DNA of 56,355 nucleotides from Bacillota bacterium. Its GTDB lineage: Bacteria; Bacillota; Dethiobacteria; Dethiobacterales; Dethiobacteraceae. The position numbers and the translations under genes are program-made. Shown here one piece after another: positions 27,796 through 37,510 of the stretch. The DNA lies in contig JAAYSO010000135.1 in assembly GCA_012523945.1 (NCBI GenBank), positions 1-56,355 on the forward strand, in the 5' to 3' direction. The notes beneath the pieces are model-generated. The model had not been told where the DNA came from, did no database searches, and worked only from the letters and a program-made list of their open reading frames with translations. Each line of letters starts with the position of its first letter. The first letter of the stretch is position 1.

Positions 27796-28593
27796 GTGGT
27801 TATAAATGAATTATTAGAAAAATCACGCCGTATTAATAAATTACTACAAAAGACGGCAGGACAGCATGTAGATTTTAAGCAGGTTGCTAATGTTCTAAAA
27901 AGTGTCATTCATGCTAACATTTATATTGCTGACCGAAGCGGAAAAATTCTGGGATATGCTCTGGTTGATGAATTTGAGTGTGAACTCATGGTTAATCAGG
28001 TACTCAAAAACGGTGCTTTTCCGGCAGACTACAATGCTCAACTCTTAAATGCCGATGAGTCAAAAGTTAATTTAAAACAAAAACGCAACAATTGTGTCTT
28101 CATTGATGATACTGAATGTCTCTTTACCAATAAGATTACGACAATTGTTCCCATCCTGGGCGGCGGCAAACGTTTAGGTACTTTACTTTTAGCACGTTTC
28201 AATGAAGAATTCACCCCTCAGGATCTGATCTTGGCTGAATACGGCGCCACTGTGATCGGCATGGAAATTTTACGCAACCGCGCTGACAAAATTGAAGAGG
28301 AAGCCAGAAATAAAGCTGTTGTGCAAATGGCTATAGGCACCCTTTCCTACTCTGAATTAGAAGCTGTGGAAAACATTTTTGCCGAACTTAACGGCGATGA
28401 GGGCATACTGGTAGCCAGCAAAATAGCTGATCAGCTTGGCATCACCCGTTCCGTAATCGTCAATGCCCTGCGTAAATTTGAAAGTGCCGGAGTAATTCAA
28501 TCTCGCTCACTGGGCATGAAGGGGACTTATATTAAAGTGAAAAACCCCTACCTCTTGGAGCAACTGGAAAAACGCAGGGTTGTCAATATGTAA
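27796..28593 (+). CDS. codY: GTP-sensing pleiotropic transcriptional regulator CodY
   Basis: Represses or activates nutrient-acquisition genes in response to GTP and branched-chain amino acids. 265 residues: N-terminal GAF domain ([20 protein letters not shown]... to about 155), linker, and C-terminal winged helix-turn-helix ([27 protein letters not shown]-type, with GMKGTYIKV). GTG start after SD AGAGAGG. In B. subtilis the flagellar operon follows; here a terminator and an unrelated gene follow. The peptide transporter at 11.7-17 kb is a plausible target, but no clear CodY box was seen there. Confidence 0.96.
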
Positions 28594-28600
28594 AACCTAG

Positions 28601-28632
28601 ACGCCCGGCCATTTGTGGCGGGGCGTTTCTAT
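28601..28632 (+). terminator. Terminator after codY
   Basis: Ten-base stem ACGCCCGGCC (28601-28610) with GGCGGGGCGT (28617-28626), one G-G mismatch, 6-base loop, then TTCTATTT. The T-tract is weak but the stem is GC-rich. Confidence 0.65.
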
Positions 28633-28701
28633 TTAAATAAACCGTCATAAACAATCTCCCAATGCGTTATAATATACTGCTGAAATAATGTATTTGGAGA
28701 G

Positions 28702-29241
28702 ATGGATTTGCCTGCATCTACAAAATTCCTGTCACTGGATAGAAAATCCTTTTTGTTAGGTTTTGGCGGAGGATTTCTGTCTTTATTGCTACTGTTCATT
28801 ATTTTTCTCATATATTTGTGGCCCCAAGGTGTCACTGTACCCCTTGACAGTGAAATGATGGCATATCTGCTACAGGAACAATTTGTCGCCCTGGCGAAAG
28901 AACAATTGCCCACAGTGGTGGAAAAAGCAAAAGCCGAAGTACCGCAGGTTGTACAAAAAAGGATGCAAAACCAGCTTCCCGCCCGCATGGAAATAGCAGG
29001 TTTTGTTTTTCGCATGCCGGATGAGCTGTTGCAGCAGCTGGAAAGCAATCTGCAAAACAATGTGCAAAAAACTACGGAAATGATTTTAGACGGCATTGAT
29101 ACATCTCAATTGGCGGTTGAGTTTGGCGACAGTGTCTATGAAATGGTAAAGGAAACCATGAAAAAAGAGCTGGACGGACAGGATTTTCAAATTTTGCTCT
29201 TTAATCGCCTGCCGCTGAAAATTTGGCTTAAAGTGCACTAA
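28702..29241 (+). CDS. Unrecognised single-span membrane protein
   Basis: I do not recognise the family. 179 residues; ATG after SD GGAGAG. A short basic/charged N-terminus is followed by one strong hydrophobic span (about residues 18-43, rich in Gly/Leu/Phe/Ile), then an alpha-helical outer or cytoplasmic part with many Gln/Glu/Lys (EQLPTVVEKAKAEVPQVV), an MPDELLQQLE stretch and VYEMVKETMKK, and a C-terminus ending in a basic-hydrophobic LPLKIWLKVH. It stands alone between codY and rpsB, behind a TATAAT at 28668-28673 without a clear -35. The composition suggests an anchored helical or coiled-coil protein; no function is claimed. Confidence 0.7.
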   Translation: MDLPASTKFLSLDRKSFLLGFGGGFLSLLLLFIIFLIYLWPQGVTVPLDSEMMAYLLQEQFVALAKEQLPTVVEKAKAEVPQVVQKRMQNQLPARMEIAGFVFRMPDELLQQLESNLQNNVQKTTEMILDGIDTSQLAVEFGDSVYEMVKETMKKELDGQDFQILLFNRLPLKIWLKVH

Positions 29242-29263
29242 AAACCGAAATTGATGTTTTTTG

Positions 29264-29292
29264 TTGCCATTGGAGTCAATCTGTGTTATACT
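29264..29292 (+). promoter_or_regulatory. Sigma-A type promoter for rpsB
   Basis: TTGCCA at 29264-29269, 17-base spacer, TATACT at 29287-29292. It leaves a leader of about 100 bases before rpsB. Confidence 0.8.
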
Positions 29293-29327
29293 ACAAGACG
29301 GTTCCAAATTACACACGTATCCTGATT

Positions 29328-29360
29328 ATTGCAGTTGTGCCGGACAAGCGGTGCTGCAAT
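29328..29360 (+). promoter_or_regulatory. Structured leader hairpin upstream of rpsB
   Basis: ATTGCAG (29328-29334) pairs with CTGCAAT (29354-29360); inside, TGCCG can pair with CGGTG around a GACAAG loop. It lies in the transcribed leader about 45 bases before the rpsB ATG, a typical place for ribosomal-protein autoregulation. Assignment to S2 binding is inference. Confidence 0.55.
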
Positions 29361-29403
29361 AAAATGAAGGAGGCGGAGGTTAAACAGAGAGGAGGTGCAG
29401 GAG

Positions 29404-30213
29404 ATGGCTGTCGTTACCATGAAGCAACTGCTTGAAGCCGGTGTACATTTCGGCCATCAAACACGTCGCTGGAATCCGAAAATGAAACCGTATATTTTTA
29501 CGGAAAGAAACGGAATTTATATTATTGACTTGCAAAAAACCGTCCGCATGATGGAGGAAGCATACAATTTTGTACGTGACCTGGTTAGGGACGGCGGCAA
29601 AATTCTTTTTGTCGGCACAAAAAAGCAAGCACAGGAATCTATCCAGCTGGAAGCCGAACGTTGTGGCATGTTTTATGTTAATCAGCGTTGGCTGGGCGGT
29701 ATGCTTACCAACTTCAAAACTATTCGCACACGGGTTAAACGCCTGATTGAGTTGGAAAAAATGGAGGAAGACGGTGTATTCGAGGTCCTGCCGAAAAAAG
29801 AAGTGATTAAGCTGCGTCATGAGTATGAAAAGCTTAATAAATTTCTTTCAGGCGTACGCAATATGCAGACACTGCCGGATGCACTGTTCATAGTAGATCC
29901 TCGTAAAGAAAGAATTGCCGTTGCCGAAGCACGTAAGTTAGGTATTCCTATCATTGCCATTGTGGATACTAACTGTGATCCGGATGAAATAGACTATATT
30001 ATTCCGGGCAACGACGATGCAATCCGTGCTGTCAAGCTTATCTCGGGACGTATGGCTGATGCGGTTCTGGAAGGGCTGGAAGGCCGTCAAGACCAAATGC
30101 CCATTGACGCAACAGAAGAAGCAGTCAAAGATGAAACGGTAGAGCCCGCTGAAGTTGAAAATGAGACCGGTGAAGCAGACGCTCCCGCTGAAGCCGTAGA
30201 AGAAGAAGTGTAA
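29404..30213 (+). CDS. rpsB: 30S ribosomal protein S2
   Basis: Structural protein of the 30S subunit. 269 residues from ATG 29404; SD AGAGGAGGTG seven bases upstream excludes the GTG at 29395. Family motifs are [58 protein letters not shown] and [24 protein letters not shown]. The last 35 residues form an acidic Glu-rich tail. Followed by tsf, as in nearly all bacteria, but with a terminator in between. Confidence 0.98.
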
Positions 30214-30228
30214 AATTACTGGAAATGC

Positions 30229-30254
30229 AGCCGGGCGCTCTGCCCGGCTTTTTT
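30229..30254 (+). terminator. Intrinsic terminator between rpsB and tsf
   Basis: Perfect eight-pair GC-rich stem AGCCGGGC (30229-30236) with GCCCGGCT (30242-30249), 5-base loop, then six T's. It is strong on paper, so tsf expression must depend on read-through or on a promoter I cannot identify. Confidence 0.9.
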
Positions 30255-30293
30255 AACAAAATCTTAGTACATTTTAGTATTGGAGGGTATGCG

Positions 30294-30941
30294 ATGATTC
30301 CCGCATCGGTTGTTAAAGAGCTACGTGATAAAACAGGTGCCGGTATGATGGATTGTAAAAAAGCCCTTACCGAGACCGGAGGCGATGTAGAAAAAGCTGT
30401 CGAGTTATTGCGTGAAAAAGGCTTGGCTGCCGCCGCCAAAAAAGCCGGTCGTGTTGCTGCTGAAGGTATTGTGGATTCCTATATTCACCTCGGCGGTCGC
30501 ATCGGTGTCTTGGTAGAAGTAAACTGTGAAACTGATTTTGTTGCCAGAACAGACGAATTCCGCGCCTTTGTCCGCGATATTGCCATGCAAATTGCAGCCA
30601 GCAATCCCAAATACCTATCCCGTGAGGACGTGCCGGCTGAAGTCATTGAAAAAGAACGCGAAATTTTAGCAGCCCAAGCTAAAAATGAAGGAAAACCTGA
30701 AAAAGTTATTGAAAAAATTGTTTCAGGCCGTATTGAAAAATTCTATACAGAAAATTGTTTGTTGGATCAACCCTTTATTAAGGATCCGGATATTACCGTT
30801 ACTGACTTAGTCAAGGAAAAAATCGCTCAAATCGGTGAAAACATTTCTATCCGCCGTTTTGCCCGCTATGAAATGGGCGAAGGGCTGGAGAAAAAGGCTT
30901 GCAATTTAGCCGATGAAGTGGCAGAAATGACAAAGTCATAA
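30294..30941 (+). CDS. tsf: Translation elongation factor Ts
   Basis: Nucleotide-exchange factor for EF-Tu. 215 residues from ATG 30294 (SD TGGAGGG); the frame extends to 30225 but that part covers the terminator. UBA-like N-terminus [20 protein letters not shown], then [29 protein letters not shown] with the TDFVAR signature, and a single compact dimerisation region. The short length is the form common in clostridia and bacilli relatives rather than the 280-residue E. coli form. Confidence 0.97.
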
Positions 30942-31763
<822 letters not shown>

Positions 31764-31775
31764 GGGGGAATTATA

Positions 31776-32333
31776 ATGCCGAAAGCAATATTTCGTGATG
31801 CTGAGGAAAGAATGCAAAAAGCTGTCTCTGTCTTAAAACAGGACTTGGGATCACTACGAGCCGGTCGTGCTACTCCTGCTTTATTGGACAAGATTATGGT
31901 AGATTATTACGGTTCATCTATGCCCATCAATCAATTGGCCAATATTTCCGTGCCCGAGCCGAGACTGCTTGTAATACAGCCTTGGGATAAAAATGCTGTG
32001 CCGGAAATTGAACGGGCTATTTTAAAATCTGATCTGGGTTTGACTCCCAACACAGACGGTTCCGTTATCCGTCTGGCTATACCGCAGTTGACAGAAGAAC
32101 GTCGCAAAGAGCTGGTTAAAGTATGCAGGAAAAAGGCAGAAGAGGGAAGGGTTGCTATCCGCAATATTCGCCGTGATGCCAACGAAGAATTGAAACAGAT
32201 GGAAAAGGCCGGTGAGATTACTGAAGATGAATACCACCGGGCAATGGACGAGGTACAAAAAATAACAGACAAAATGATTGAAAATGTGGACAAAGTTTTA
32301 GCAGACAAAGAAAAAGAGATTATGGAGGTTTAA
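31776..32333 (+). CDS. frr: Ribosome recycling factor
   Basis: Splits post-termination ribosomes with EF-G; tRNA-shaped protein of 185 residues. Conserved blocks are [60 protein letters not shown] and [22 protein letters not shown] eight bases before ATG, twelve bases after pyrH. The next small gene begins three bases after its stop. Confidence 0.98.
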
Positions 32334-32336
32334 CCG

Positions 32337-32543
32337 GTGCAGGCACATGAACTTCCTGATGTTCTGGCTTACTCCCTTGAGGACGCTGTATTAATCCTGG
32401 AAAAGGCCGGCATCAAGTATACCGTGCAAAAAACAAATCCCCCAAAACACAAGGCAAATACAGCAAGAGTCAGAGTGGTCAGACAGCGTTTCCGGCCTGG
32501 AGAAAATATGCTTCAGCTGACAGTAATGCCTGAAATTTGGTAA
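32337..32543 (+). CDS. Free-standing single-PASTA-domain mini-protein
   Basis: 68 residues, GTG start; SD GGAGG overlaps the end of frr, so translation is probably coupled. The sequence follows one PASTA unit: ELPDVLAYSLEDAVLILEKAGIKYTV matches the opening 'P-D-V-x-G-x-x-x-x-x-A-x-x-x-L-x-x-x-G' pattern, and the end (VRVVRQRFRPGENMLQLTVMPE) matches the 'V-x-x-Q-x-P-x-P-G' strand region. There is no signal peptide or membrane span, so it should be cytosolic, unlike PASTA parts of PrkC or PBPs. Its position between frr and uppS, at the start of undecaprenyl synthesis, is suggestive; no function is known to me. Confidence 0.75.
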   Translation: MQAHELPDVLAYSLEDAVLILEKAGIKYTVQKTNPPKHKANTARVRVVRQRFRPGENMLQLTVMPEIW

Positions 32544-32558
32544 AAATAAAAATAACAG

Positions 32559-32581
32559 CCCCCTCAAAAGGGGGTTCTTCT
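32559..32581 (+). terminator. Weak terminator-like hairpin before uppS
   Basis: Six-pair GC stem CCCCCT (32559-32564) with AGGGGG (32569-32574), CAAA loop, then TTCTTCT. It ends next to the uppS SD, so it could also limit uppS translation. The T-tract is imperfect. Confidence 0.5.
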
Positions 32582-32598
32582 CTAAAGGGGTGGATGCG

Positions 32599-33363
32599 TT
32601 GCTTTTCTCTTTACGCCGCTTGCTGCCCGCTAAAAAGCCGCAAAAAACTTCCCACCACAATGAAGTCCCCCGGCATGTGGCCATTATTATGGACGGGAAC
32701 GGGCGTTGGGCCGCAGAGCGAGGTCTGCCACGAACGGCCGGTCACCATGCAGGAATGGGCGCGTTGCGACGTACCATCCGGGCTGCCGGCGAACTAGGAA
32801 TAGAAGTGTTAACCGTCTTTGCTTTTTCCACAGAAAACTGGAAACGCCCAAAAGCGGAAGTTGATTTTTTAATGCGTTTACCGCAGGAATTTCTCAAAAC
32901 TGATTTACCGGAATTAATGGAGAAAAACGTCCGGGTCAGGATGTCGGGAAACCGTGAAGGCCTGCCTTTGCACACGTTACAGGCAGTTGATACCGCCATT
33001 GAAAAAACAAAAACCAATACAGGCATGATCCTTAATTTTGCTTTAAATTACGGCAGTAGGGCAGAAATAGTGGCAGCCGTCCGTAAAATTGCTTTTTTAG
33101 CGGCTAAAGGTAAGCTTGATCCACAAACCATTGATGAAAATAGATTTAACCAATATCTTTTTACTGCTGATTTGCCCGATCCGGATTTACTGATTCGCTG
33201 CAGCGGAGAAATCCGCCTGAGTAATTTTTTACTTTGGCAATTGGCATATGCCGAACTTTGGTTTACAGATGTTTATTGGCCTGATTTTAAAGGCGAGCAT
33301 TTACTGGCTGCTATTGAAGCCTTCCGCAGGCGGGACAGACGTTTTGGCGGTATTAATCTCTAA
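32599..33363 (+). CDS. uppS: Isoprenyl transferase / undecaprenyl diphosphate synthase
   Basis: cis-Prenyltransferase that makes the undecaprenyl carrier lipid for peptidoglycan. Conserved blocks are HVAIIMDGNGRWA (catalytic Asp32), FAFSTENWKRP, LNFALNYGSRAEI and DPDLLIRCSGEIRLSNFLLWQLAYAE-type C-terminus. TTG 32599 (254 residues) is preferred over GTG 32590, because SD AAAGGGG (32584-32590) overlaps the GTG but lies eight bases from the TTG. cdsA follows after 14 bases, the usual order. Confidence 0.95.
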   Translation: MLFSLRRLLPAKKPQKTSHHNEVPRHVAIIMDGNGRWAAERGLPRTAGHHAGMGALRRTIRAAGELGIEVLTVFAFSTENWKRPKAEVDFLMRLPQEFLKTDLPELMEKNVRVRMSGNREGLPLHTLQAVDTAIEKTKTNTGMILNFALNYGSRAEIVAAVRKIAFLAAKGKLDPQTIDENRFNQYLFTADLPDPDLLIRCSGEIRLSNFLLWQLAYAELWFTDVYWPDFKGEHLLAAIEAFRRRDRRFGGINL

Positions 33364-33377
33364 CAGGAGTGACAGAG

Positions 33378-34154
33378 ATGTTTAAACAACGCGTAGTAAG
33401 CGCACTAATCAGTATACCGCTTGTACTGGGCGCTGTATGGGTTGGGAATTATTTTTTCTTCCTTGTACTCTTAATCATCAATTTGCTTGCCTTGCGGGAG
33501 TGGTTTGGCATCTTTACGTTGCAGGAAAAAAACTTAAAAGTCCTGACTTATATAGGTTGTATACTGATTAATATTTTAGCGTATTATTATCAGCTTGACG
33601 GAATTTTGCCGGCTCTGGTTTGCTTTTTTCTCTTGCTAAACCTGTTCTGGGTGCTTCATTTCCCCTTTGATTTTCAGGCTGTGCTACTGGCCTTTTGGGG
33701 ACAAATCCATATTTCCTTTTTATTATCTTTTTTTCTTTTATTACGCAATCAGCCTGATGGTTTGCTGCTGGTTTTAAGCGTTCTTTTCAGTGTCTGGGCT
33801 TCTGATACAGGGGCATATTTATGCGGCATTGCCTTTGGACGGCATAAACTGCTGCCGGCGGTCAGTCCCAAAAAGTCCCTTGAGGGAGCCTTGGGCGGAA
33901 TTGTTTTTGCCGGACTGATCATGGGCATCTTTGCCCCCTACCTAAATTTAGAACGTTTAGTTGCCGTTTTGCTGGGCATATTATTTTCTTTTGCCGGGCA
34001 AGCAGGTGATCTGGCGGAATCCGCCGTCAAGCGACAGGCCAAGGTGAAAGATTCGGGACGTTTTCTGCCGGGACACGGCGGTCTTTTTGACCGGCTGGAC
34101 AGCCTTTTATTTGCGGCACCTGTAGCTTATTTTATCTATACTTTTTTACTTTAA
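33378..34154 (+). CDS. cdsA: Phosphatidate cytidylyltransferase
   Basis: Makes CDP-diacylglycerol for phospholipid synthesis. Polytopic membrane protein, 258 residues, with at least six hydrophobic segments. The C-terminal signature is complete (SAVKRQAKVKDSGRFLPGHG, then GLFDRLDSLLF). ATG 33378 sits after SD CAGGAG with better spacing than GTG 33369. Part of uppS-cdsA-dxr-rseP, a lipid and envelope series. Confidence 0.96.
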   Translation: MFKQRVVSALISIPLVLGAVWVGNYFFFLVLLIINLLALREWFGIFTLQEKNLKVLTYIGCILINILAYYYQLDGILPALVCFFLLLNLFWVLHFPFDFQAVLLAFWGQIHISFLLSFFLLLRNQPDGLLLVLSVLFSVWASDTGAYLCGIAFGRHKLLPAVSPKKSLEGALGGIVFAGLIMGIFAPYLNLERLVAVLLGILFSFAGQAGDLAESAVKRQAKVKDSGRFLPGHGGLFDRLDSLLFAAPVAYFIYTFLL

Positions 34155-34169
34155 TCTGGAGGCACAGCT

Positions 34170-35339
34170 GTGAAGTGGATTACAATTTTAGGTTCAACCG
34201 GTTCCATCGGAACTCAAGCTTTGGAAGTAATTGCTGTCTATCCTGACCTGTTCCGTATATATGCACTGACAGCCGGGCGGAACGTTTCAGTTTTAATCCG
34301 GCAGGCAAGACGGTTTAAACCGCAAAAAGTTGTCATTGCCGATGAAAGCAAGTATGCTGAATTAAAAACAGCTTTAGCCGGCTTGCCGGTGGAGGTTTTG
34401 GCCGGCAGTAACGCAATTTCTCAGCTGGCGGCAGAAGCACAACCTGATTTAGTTTTAAATGCCCTTGTAGGTTTTGCCGGATTAAAACCGACACTTTCCG
34501 CCTTACATGCAGGGAAAAATGTGGCTCTGGCCAATAAAGAGACCCTGGTAGCGGGAGGCCATTTAGTAATGCCTCTGGCTCAAAAAGCAAAAAAGACGGT
34601 GATACCGGTTGACAGCGAACATTCAGCCATCTTTCAATGCCTGCAAGGACAGGAAAATACGGCTGTGGAAAATATTATTTTAACGGCTTCCGGCGGTCCC
34701 TTTTTCGGCTATACACTGGGACAATTACGTACAGTTAATGTTGAGGATGCTTTAAAGCACCCCAACTGGACGATGGGGAAAAAAATTACCATTGATTCTG
34801 CTACCATGATGAATAAAGGCTTGGAAGTAATAGAAGCCCACTGGCTTTTTGGCCTTGATTACGATAAGATAAAAGTAGTTATTCACCGTCAAAGTATCAT
34901 TCATTCCATGGTTACTTTTCAGGACGGAGCCGTTTTGGCACAACTGGGTGCCCCGGACATGCGGTTACCGATCCAATATGCTCTAACTTATCCGCAGCGT
35001 CTAAAATTAGATGTTCCCCGCCTGCAATGGGAAGAAATCACTGAACTAAATTTTTCCGCCCCCGATCATGAAAACTTTCCTTGTTTGAAATTGGCCTATG
35101 AAGCCGGCAGAATCGGCGGCACCATGCCGGCTGTTTTAAATGCAGCCAATGAGGAAGCTGTCAGCCTTTTTCTGCAGGGCAAAATCAGCTTTTTAGCGGT
35201 GGCCCGTATAATTGAAGCAGTGATGAATAAACATAAAGTAGTCACTGCTCCTGACTACGAAACCTTGACGGCCACTGACCGGCAAGCACGTCTTCTGGCA
35301 AGACAGTTTGCTTTAGAGGAAAGGGTGAGAAAATGCTGA
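34170..35339 (+). CDS. dxr: 1-deoxy-D-xylulose 5-phosphate reductoisomerase
   Basis: First committed step of the MEP isoprenoid pathway, NADPH-dependent. 389 residues. NADPH site GSTGSIGTQAL; active-site blocks VDSEHSAIFQCLQ, LTASGGPFFG, HPNWTMGKKITIDSATMMNKGLEVIEA, and HRQSIIHSMVTFQDGAVLAQLGAPDMRLPIQYAL. GTG start with SD CTGGAGG. Its 3' end overlaps rseP by seven bases. With ispG in the same operon it shows that the organism uses the MEP route to isoprenoids. Confidence 0.97.
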   Translation: MKWITILGSTGSIGTQALEVIAVYPDLFRIYALTAGRNVSVLIRQARRFKPQKVVIADESKYAELKTALAGLPVEVLAGSNAISQLAAEAQPDLVLNALVGFAGLKPTLSALHAGKNVALANKETLVAGGHLVMPLAQKAKKTVIPVDSEHSAIFQCLQGQENTAVENIILTASGGPFFGYTLGQLRTVNVEDALKHPNWTMGKKITIDSATMMNKGLEVIEAHWLFGLDYDKIKVVIHRQSIIHSMVTFQDGAVLAQLGAPDMRLPIQYALTYPQRLKLDVPRLQWEEITELNFSAPDHENFPCLKLAYEAGRIGGTMPAVLNAANEEAVSLFLQGKISFLAVARIIEAVMNKHKVVTAPDYETLTATDRQARLLARQFALEERVRKC

Positions 35340-36352
35340 CACTTATCGCCTCCGTCGTAATTTTCGGCCTTTTAGTTTTTTTTCATGAACTTGGCCATTA
35401 TCTGGCGGCAAAAAACGCCGGTATTGGTGTCATTGAGTTTGCCCTTGGTTTTGGTCCGAAACTTTTAAGCAAGGAAAAAGACGGAACAATCTATTCACTA
35501 CGTGCCTTTCCTTTAGGCGGATTTGTCCGGCTTGTGGGCGAGGATCCTGAAGACGATGAACAGGAAAACAGTTTTCAAAAACAACCTGTGTGGAAACGAT
35601 TCACTGCTATTGCTGCAGGCCCGCTCATGAACTTTGTTTTAGCCATTCTCTTATTTTCCCTGATTTATTTTGCTTTTTTAGGTGTACCGGATTATAATTC
35701 CACAGTGATTGGCAAGGTTTTGCCTGACGGCCAGGCAGAAGCAGTTGGTTTACAGGAAGGTGACCGCATTCTTTCCGTGGCCGGGCAAGAAGTATCCCGG
35801 TGGGAAGATGTGGTGACAATTATTCATGCCCACCCTGAACGTGAAATTGAGATTATTTTTTCCCGCAATGACTCAATTCAGCAACTAGCCGTCACTCCGA
35901 TACGCGACGAGCAAACCGGGAACGGTCTCATTGGTATCCAGGCCAAAACTTATTTGTATAGGCCCTTTGCCTCACTGCGTTTAGGGGTTGAACACTGTAT
36001 TTGGGTTGTCCGCTACCTGCTTATCGGCTTGGTACAAATGATCACAGGTCGCGCGGCCCCGGAGATCGTGGGACCTGTAGGCATTATTCACCTTGTAGGC
36101 GAAGTGGCCCGCACAGGTTTGATGAACCTTATTTCTTTGGCAGCCATCATCAGTCTCAATTTAGGTGTCATTAATTTGCTGCCAATACCGGCTTTAGACG
36201 GCAGCCGTCTCTTATTTTTAGTAGTTGAGGGCTTACGTGGACGTCCTATTGATCCACATAAAGAATCATTCGTTCATTTTATCGGTTTTACTTTATTAAT
36301 TGTCTTAATGATTGTCATAGCTTACCGTGACATCATGAATATTTTTTATTAA
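35333..36352 (+). CDS. rseP: Site-2 zinc metalloprotease RseP/RasP
   Basis: Intramembrane protease that cleaves anti-sigma factors and leftover signal peptides. 339 residues. The zinc motif HELGH is at residues 18-22 inside the first membrane span, followed by the GFGPKL loop; one PDZ domain occupies about 110-200 (DGQAEAVGLQEGDRILSVAG); the second active-site motif NLLPIPALDGSR lies in a later span. It is a candidate to act on the ECF anti-sigma factor encoded at 6626; that link is inference. Confidence 0.96.
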   Translation: MLTLIASVVIFGLLVFFHELGHYLAAKNAGIGVIEFALGFGPKLLSKEKDGTIYSLRAFPLGGFVRLVGEDPEDDEQENSFQKQPVWKRFTAIAAGPLMNFVLAILLFSLIYFAFLGVPDYNSTVIGKVLPDGQAEAVGLQEGDRILSVAGQEVSRWEDVVTIIHAHPEREIEIIFSRNDSIQQLAVTPIRDEQTGNGLIGIQAKTYLYRPFASLRLGVEHCIWVVRYLLIGLVQMITGRAAPEIVGPVGIIHLVGEVARTGLMNLISLAAIISLNLGVINLLPIPALDGSRLLFLVVEGLRGRPIDPHKESFVHFIGFTLLIVLMIVIAYRDIMNIFY

Positions 36353-36363
36353 GAGGGGAAAAG

Positions 36364-37443
36364 ATGATTACCCGCAATGCAACCAGAAAAGTACGGGTAG
36401 GAAAATTAACTATCGGCGGCGGTGCCCCTGTGGTGATACAATCCATGACCAATACGCAGACTGCCGATACTGCAGTAACTCTGGCCCAAATTCGGGCATT
36501 AGAAGCTGCAGGCTGTGAACTGGTACGTGTGGCAGTACCGGACAAGCAAGCCGCTGCGGCTCTGCCTGAACTTGTGGCCCAATCGCCACTGCCGCTTGTA
36601 GCCGACATTCATTTTGATTACCGTTTAGCTTTGACGGCCCTGGATGCCGGGGTGGCCAAATTACGCATTAATCCCGGTAACATTGGCGGTCAGTCACGTT
36701 TAGCTCAAGTTGTGGAAAAAGCCGGAGAAAAAAATGTCGCTTTGCGCATAGGAGTCAATGCCGGCTCCTTGGAAAAACGCCTATTGGAAAAATACGGGGA
36801 AATTACGGCTGAAGCTTTAGTGGAATCAGCCCTGGATCATATCCGCATGGTAGAAGCGTGCGGTTTTACGCAAATTGTTGTTTCTTTAAAAGCCTCATCC
36901 GTACCGTTAATGGTGGCGGCACATCGCCTTTTGGCACAAACTGTTGCTTATCCACAGCATCTCGGTGTAACGGAAGCTGGTTCAGCTTTCAGCGGCACCG
37001 TCCATTCCGCCGTTGGTATCGGCACCTTGCTTTTGGACGGGCTAGGTGATACGTTGCGTGTTTCCTTAACAGCTTCACCCCTGGAGGAAGTGCGTGTGGC
37101 TAAAGAAATTCTCACGGCAGCCGGTGTTCGCCGCTTTGGCCCGCGTGTAATTTCTTGCCCCACTTGCGGCCGCACACAAATAAACTTGCAGAGAATAGCA
37201 CAAGAAATTGAAGAACGTGTCAAAGGTATTGCTAAACCTCTGACATTGGCAGTGATGGGTTGTGCCGTCAACGGCCCCGGTGAAGCCCGGGAAGCCGATC
37301 TGGGCATAGCGGGAGGAAAAAAAGAAGGATTGATTTTTTGCCGGGGTAAAATTCTGAAAAAAGTTCCCCAGGACAAAATTGTGGACGAATTTATGGAGAC
37401 GCTACAACAGTTTTTGCAAAATGAGGAGCCAGAAGCACAGTAG
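36364..37443 (+). CDS. ispG: (E)-4-hydroxy-3-methylbut-2-enyl diphosphate synthase (IspG/GcpE)
   Basis: Iron-sulfur enzyme of the MEP pathway. 359 residues. N-terminal TIM barrel (PVVIQSMTNTQTAD, LVADIHFDYRLAL, LRINPGNIG) and C-terminal cluster domain with CPTCGRT and VMGCAVNGPGEA, which supply the three [4Fe-4S] cysteines and a conserved Glu. ATG after SD AGAGGGG. In many relatives proS and polC follow; here a promoter and rimP follow directly. Confidence 0.97.
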   Translation: MITRNATRKVRVGKLTIGGGAPVVIQSMTNTQTADTAVTLAQIRALEAAGCELVRVAVPDKQAAAALPELVAQSPLPLVADIHFDYRLALTALDAGVAKLRINPGNIGGQSRLAQVVEKAGEKNVALRIGVNAGSLEKRLLEKYGEITAEALVESALDHIRMVEACGFTQIVVSLKASSVPLMVAAHRLLAQTVAYPQHLGVTEAGSAFSGTVHSAVGIGTLLLDGLGDTLRVSLTASPLEEVRVAKEILTAAGVRRFGPRVISCPTCGRTQINLQRIAQEIEERVKGIAKPLTLAVMGCAVNGPGEAREADLGIAGGKKEGLIFCRGKILKKVPQDKIVDEFMETLQQFLQNEEPEAQ

Positions 37444-37455
37444 TTCCCCTGCTGC

Positions 37456-37484
37456 TTGAAAGTTCTTGCCAGATGTGGTAAAAT
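37456..37484 (+). promoter_or_regulatory. Sigma-A type promoter of the rimP-nusA-infB operon
   Basis: TTGAAA at 37456-37461, 17-base spacer, TAAAAT at 37479-37484. Transcription from here would give a leader of roughly 130 bases before rimP. Confidence 0.85.
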
Positions 37485-37510
37485 AATAAGGAATAGAAAT
37501 GCATGGATGA

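Follow-up and report, generated by a model that had tools for sequence, protein, structure and literature searches.

Genes and features at the frr-uppS junction

The window (the whole stretch of DNA analysed, 56,355 nt) contains a small gene for a PASTA-like protein, here called mini-PASTA. It lies between frr and uppS and is followed by a GC-rich hairpin with a U-rich tail. The features of this region are:

31776..32333, + strand: frr, ribosome recycling factor (TIGR00496, E=4.6e-73)
32325..32329, + strand: Shine-Dalgarno sequence of mini-PASTA, GGAGG, within the last frr codons (from the sequence; relatives share the arrangement)
32337..32543, + strand: mini-PASTA gene, 68 aa, GTG start, TAA stop (open reading frame with a PF03793 match above cut-off)
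32346..32432, + strand: canonical PASTA-like half of the protein, residues 4-32, HELPDVLAYSLEDAVLILEKAGIKYTVQK (HH alignment and model)
32472..32489, + strand: family-specific strand RVVRQR, residues 46-51 (residue conservation in 147 sequences)
32557..32576, + strand: C5/G5 hairpin, AGCCCCCT-CAAA-AGGGGGTT (folding, -13.1 kcal/mol)
32575..32583, + strand: U-rich hairpin tail, TTCTTCTCT (from the sequence)
32590..33363, + strand: uppS, undecaprenyl pyrophosphate synthase (NF011405, E=8.1e-111)

The frr stop codon is 3 nt ahead of the mini-PASTA start. The first possible start of uppS is the GTG at 32590; judging from the sequence, the true start may be the TTG at 32599, which lies behind AGGGGTGG.

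Ordinary PASTA proteins are also encoded in this genome: PrkC, a PBP with PASTA repeats and a long multi-PASTA protein. The window opens inside the extracytoplasmic PASTA repeats of PrkC (positions 1-660), which are followed by rsgA; the kinase half of PrkC appears to end contig C14 (L089). A 540-aa frame (L084, G000:C141) encodes a protein that crosses the membrane once, with roughly five PASTA repeats and an N-terminal portion in the cytosol; a kinase part was not seen in the frame read.

Mini-PASTA is a remodelled PASTA domain

PASTA domains are taken to be outside sensors of cell-wall precursors. The original prediction described the 68-residue protein as a single PASTA unit and proposed comparison with the PASTA profile as a check. 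The protein matches Pfam PF03793 above the gathering cut-off (E=2e-5; 24.9 bits against 23.2) over profile positions 2-51 of 64. PASTA is matched individually by 43 of 61 diverse family members (Pfam, E<=0.1); every other Pfam family has at most one match among the 61. The PDB sequence search returns weak PknB matches only, while the NCBIfam search returns only a chance match; the family does not have its own NCBIfam model.

The AlphaFold model of mini-PASTA (61 sequences) has a pLDDT of 86.6, with about 95 across residues 11-30. It consists of a helix (residues 14-24) followed by three strands (28-32, 45-53 and 58-65). For both models compared with the PDB using Foldseek, the first nine or ten matches are PASTA-bearing chains of PBP2x, PrkC and PknB; these top matches have probabilities up to 0.98 and TM values of 0.49-0.56 (0.49-0.54 for the top nine with the pLDDT 86.6 model). 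No Foldseek match is at E<0.001.

When compared by HH profile alignment with PASTA repeats from its own genome, mini-PASTA aligns only over residues 4-32, its N-terminal half, with a probability of 94%. The family pattern (alignment A1) is PDVLAY.L.EA...L...G....T.PP....RVVRQR....LEL.VA.E.W. The canonical C-terminal part, PxxG..V..G..V.L.VS, is not found in mini-PASTA; the corresponding region has RVVRQR....EL.VA.E instead. Among 147 sequences, Arg46 is conserved in 94%, Val47 in 89% (Ile in 10%; Val or Ile in 99%) and Arg49 in 80%.

Mini-PASTA is homologous to PASTA domains. It shares with the PF03793 domains of PrkC, PknB and StkP the N-terminal half PDV.G..L.EA...L...G and the helix with three strands. 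Unlike them, it stands alone as one domain, without transmembrane or kinase segments, and the canonical PxxG..V..G loop is replaced by the RVVRQR strand and a short hairpin. The fold is also common to the PASTA domains of PBP2x, PBP1 and PonA2 (Foldseek ranks 1-6 are PBP2x; the isolated PonA2 PASTA domain has a TM of 0.55). In contrast to mini-PASTA, which makes up a whole protein and lacks an export signal, these domains are extracytoplasmic and C-terminal to a transpeptidase. Canonical PASTA proteins have a membrane anchor or signal and a linked catalytic domain; neither is found in mini-PASTA, and the frames in relatives also stand alone. Mini-PASTA is thus a remodelled, free-standing PASTA domain.

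Inspection of the 68-aa sequence agrees with the original prediction that there is no signal peptide or hydrophobic segment. Since both are absent, the protein is probably cytosolic.

Distribution and selection

The original prediction suggested a synteny search, and would have been given up had the PASTA profile match failed or the gene been confined to this genome; neither is the case. Mini-PASTA is found directly behind frr in 146 of 187 genomes read at the locus, a set enriched for positives as many loci were fetched as search matches. In a sample of one genome per family, it is present in 43 of 73 Bacillota families and missing from 30; a few of its representatives had been retrieved earlier, and the sample excludes the window's class.

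Profile search of the window's class finds mini-PASTA in 45 of 98 genomes; in family f1, to which the window belongs, 19 of 20 genomes have it, whereas family f3 has none. Across the phylum, profile search finds it in 100 of 398 genomes at E<=1e-6; this count is too low, since closer reading of the frr-uppS gaps gave further divergent members. A single-protein scan of genome contigs found no relatives, which is explained by the fast divergence of the family. In a sister genome, mini-PASTA has 63% identity, compared with 94% for frr. A single-sequence search of 60 near relatives gives 29 matches, 28 of which are between frr and uppS or at a frr-adjacent contig end. One match (L026) was rejected as a homologue; it lies within a 572-aa frame, and neither frr nor uppS was found around it.

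Pairwise dN/dS of mini-PASTA is 0.14-0.41 in 12 pairs of relatives, and purifying selection has maintained the gene at this one position in more than 40 families. A chance or decaying reading frame would likewise be small and evolve fast; this explanation can be dismissed given the dN/dS values, the retention of the frame in 146 genomes and the conserved Shine-Dalgarno sequence and motif, conservation being sufficient to refute it. Mini-PASTA is a real, old, selected gene that many families either lost or never acquired. Given its fast evolution and the 30 of 73 families without it, it is not essential in general.

Linkage to frr

The start of mini-PASTA is a median 3 nt past the frr stop and is no more than 30 nt past it in 128 of 137 cases. 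The arrangement frr-PASTA-(ferredoxin)-uppS is seen in 143 of 146 genomes; the remainder are two contig ends and one genome in which the operon is split. In this split genome, G139 (L149, L211, L226), frr and mini-PASTA are followed by aspartokinase, and uppS-cdsA is located behind a uvrC-like gene on another contig. The C5/G5 hairpin is absent in G139, both at frr-mini-PASTA and at the relocated uppS. In 40 sampled genomes, frr adjoins uppS with no mini-PASTA between them.

In position, and probably also in expression, mini-PASTA goes with frr rather than with uppS. This is because of the short spacing behind frr, the hairpin and often a ferredoxin gene that intervene before uppS, and the split operon. 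The last of these arguments comes from one genome, G139, and is the weakest step. The same evidence speaks against the predicted functional tie of mini-PASTA to uppS.

A conserved hairpin ahead of uppS

The original prediction had a terminator-like hairpin covering the uppS Shine-Dalgarno region. The hairpin is real (0 of 200 shuffles are as stable as -13.1 kcal/mol) and terminator-like, with the GC-rich stem and U tract close behind a stop codon that define an intrinsic terminator. However, it does not cover the Shine-Dalgarno sequence; its 3' end is about 9 nt upstream.

A CCCCC 5' arm with a GGGGG 3' arm is present in 96 of 133 frr-uppS gaps, compared with a mean of 2.6 and a maximum of 7 in dinucleotide shuffles; the reverse polarity (G5 then C5) is found in 3 of 133. 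The C5/G5 core was the selection criterion and is fixed by construction in the counted hairpins; the stem sequence is considered conserved because of this count and the scarcity of unrelated stems in the same gaps. In the one-per-family sample, the hairpin is present in 47 of 72 families. It is found in 114 of 143 intact frr-PASTA-(ferredoxin)-uppS arrangements, and in 17 of 40 genomes where mini-PASTA is absent; it is therefore not part of the mini-PASTA gene.

The hairpin begins a median 12 nt past the mini-PASTA stop, or 9 nt past the ferredoxin stop. Its distance from the upstream stop codon is nearly constant, while its distance from uppS varies. The outer pairs covary (A-T, G-C, G-T), with the first pair formed in 85 of 95 cases (73.6 expected), and the loop varies in sequence and length. 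The tail has a mean of 5.5 T in 9 nt across the family; this U tract is weaker than those of strong terminators. In family f5 of the class (L013, L018, L056, L112), the tail is nearly invariant, CTATTTATA, which is beyond the needs of a U tract.

The strict pattern CCCCCTC-N(3-8)-GAGGGGG was counted in ten whole genomes and has 0-2 copies per genome; it is present in six of the ten, with one copy at uppS in each. This rarity and location led to rejection of the hairpin as the generic terminator style of these genomes. A looser pattern has about three copies per genome, which is near its reversed control. A second copy of the strict pattern is located between D-alanyl-D-alanine carboxypeptidase-like and spoIIAA-like genes, where it is terminator-like; another is apparently inside a coding region (L217 2001, L218 2001). 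A DNA operator was also rejected, as the spacer length varies widely and the outer pairs covary. There was no Rfam match at E<=1 in positions 28000-37500 of the window, nor at the junction in eight relatives.

From its sequence features, the hairpin is best read as a leaky internal terminator that would lower uppS relative to the translation genes. In B. subtilis, terminators are typically located a few nt behind stop codons (PMC7858274). Clostridial operons adjust gene ratios by means of internal terminators that have longer GC-rich stems and fewer U (PMC9045158). The frr-uppS hairpin shares with the terminators of clostridial ABC-importer operons (PMC9045158) a GC-rich stem, reduced U content and a position directly behind a stop codon within an operon. 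It differs from them in keeping the same stem sequence at a single junction in dozens of families. The fixed C5/G5 stem sequence goes beyond what a generic terminator explains; for this reason, the hairpin may be the more unusual part of the locus.

Alternatively, the hairpin may serve uppS as a binding site or a translational switch instead of terminating transcription. The G-rich 3' arm (GAGGGGGU) resembles a Shine-Dalgarno sequence and the C-rich 5' arm an anti-Shine-Dalgarno sequence; the stem keeps one sequence and one polarity, the hairpin is rarely found at other places in each genome, and some copies are only a few nt from the uppS Shine-Dalgarno. However, spacing is held to the upstream stop codon and not to uppS, a U-rich tail is present, and the hairpin did not accompany the relocated uppS of G139. 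A loop ligand is unlikely because the loop is free in sequence and length. A binding site or switch is accordingly considered unlikely, and the leaky terminator is preferred.

Proposed role of mini-PASTA

In the explanation we favour, mini-PASTA belongs to an old Bacillota family that is widespread and whose members stand alone and are probably cytosolic. Its position suggests that it is produced together with ribosome recycling factor. The hairpin would act as a leaky terminator, stepping transcription down from rpsB-tsf-pyrH-frr-(mini-PASTA)-(ferredoxin) to uppS-cdsA-dxr-rseP-ispG. More weakly, mini-PASTA may be a small adaptor for a putative cytosolic protein partner rather than a muropeptide receptor; the conserved Arg46 and Arg49 and the Thr33-Pro-Pro loop could form its binding face. 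Taken jointly, these claims are somewhat more probable than their negation. The adaptor role is the least assuming proposal and is put forward with low confidence; ribosome binding and lipid sensing are given lower odds.

A broader proposal gives PASTA domains a second role, in the cytosol: mini-PASTA, translated together with ribosome recycling factor, would couple the termination or recycling stage of translation to some other process of the cell, and the phylum-wide hairpin, fixed in sequence, would determine (or be regulated to determine) how strongly translation genes are expressed relative to lipid-carrier genes. This is speculative and we would not expect it to hold in full.

The PASTA domain family is known; what appears new is the stand-alone form, the changed C-terminal half and the fixed place behind frr across the phylum. 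Searches of open-access papers found nothing on the frr-uppS junction, nor on any PASTA protein that is cytosolic or stands alone. If the proposal is true, a widespread stand-alone PASTA domain in the cytosol, travelling with ribosome recycling factor, would show this fold in another role. Mini-PASTA itself is a small, testable protein, and much of the phylum retains it. The C5/G5 hairpin recurs where the translation genes give way to the envelope genes, within one of the best-conserved operons of bacteria. It could serve as a test case for how conserved internal terminators tune gene ratios, and with them the amount of UppS, a drug target.

Alternative roles

Mini-PASTA may instead bind ribosomes or RNA through its arginine strand, as an accessory in ribosome recycling or late translation. 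This would fit the constant place directly behind frr in an operon of translation genes and the conservation of RVVRQR. However, the family has almost no net charge (median 0, quartiles -1 to +1), unlike typical small RNA-binding proteins, and Foldseek gives no significant likeness to ribosomal proteins (probabilities of about 0.1). An accessory of this kind is doubtful; bulk RNA binding in particular was marked down because of the net charge.

PASTA domains of kinases and PBPs bind muropeptides or lipid II. PknB is an example of ligand binding by PASTA domains (PMC3145798). By analogy, mini-PASTA might sense a lipid-linked wall precursor or undecaprenyl phosphate, or bind UppS or an early wall enzyme, and so set lipid-carrier synthesis; this is close to what was originally predicted. 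In 143 genomes, uppS is the next gene or the next but one. Against this, mini-PASTA is joined to frr and insulated from uppS by the hairpin, a ferredoxin gene often intervenes, mini-PASTA stays with frr where uppS has moved, frr and uppS adjoin without it in the 40 sampled genomes, and the second half of the domain is altered from canonical PASTA. Lipid sensing or UppS binding is therefore improbable.

A role as a cytosolic part of PASTA-kinase signalling, e.g. as a PrkC substrate or adaptor, is more improbable still. PrkC and a PASTA-repeat PBP are encoded in the same genome, with the PrkC repeats opening the window before rsgA. However, these repeats are outside the membrane, making like-with-like pairing impossible for a cytosolic protein. 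Furthermore, prkC is nearly universal in Bacillota, which counts against this role. In its favour, PASTA kinases do have small cytosolic targets, ReoM among them (PMC8528326).

A ferredoxin gene at the same junction

A gene for an FdxA-type 2[4Fe-4S] ferredoxin (NF058577; 55-60 aa) is present in the frr-uppS gap of 25 of 73 families. The ferredoxin shares this gap with mini-PASTA but is an unrelated protein; its gene is absent from the window. It is located ahead of the hairpin at L093, L095, L109, L121, L122, L126, L136 and other loci, either behind mini-PASTA or, as in G004/L093, in place of it. The ferredoxin could be the electron donor of IspG, which is encoded in the same operon.
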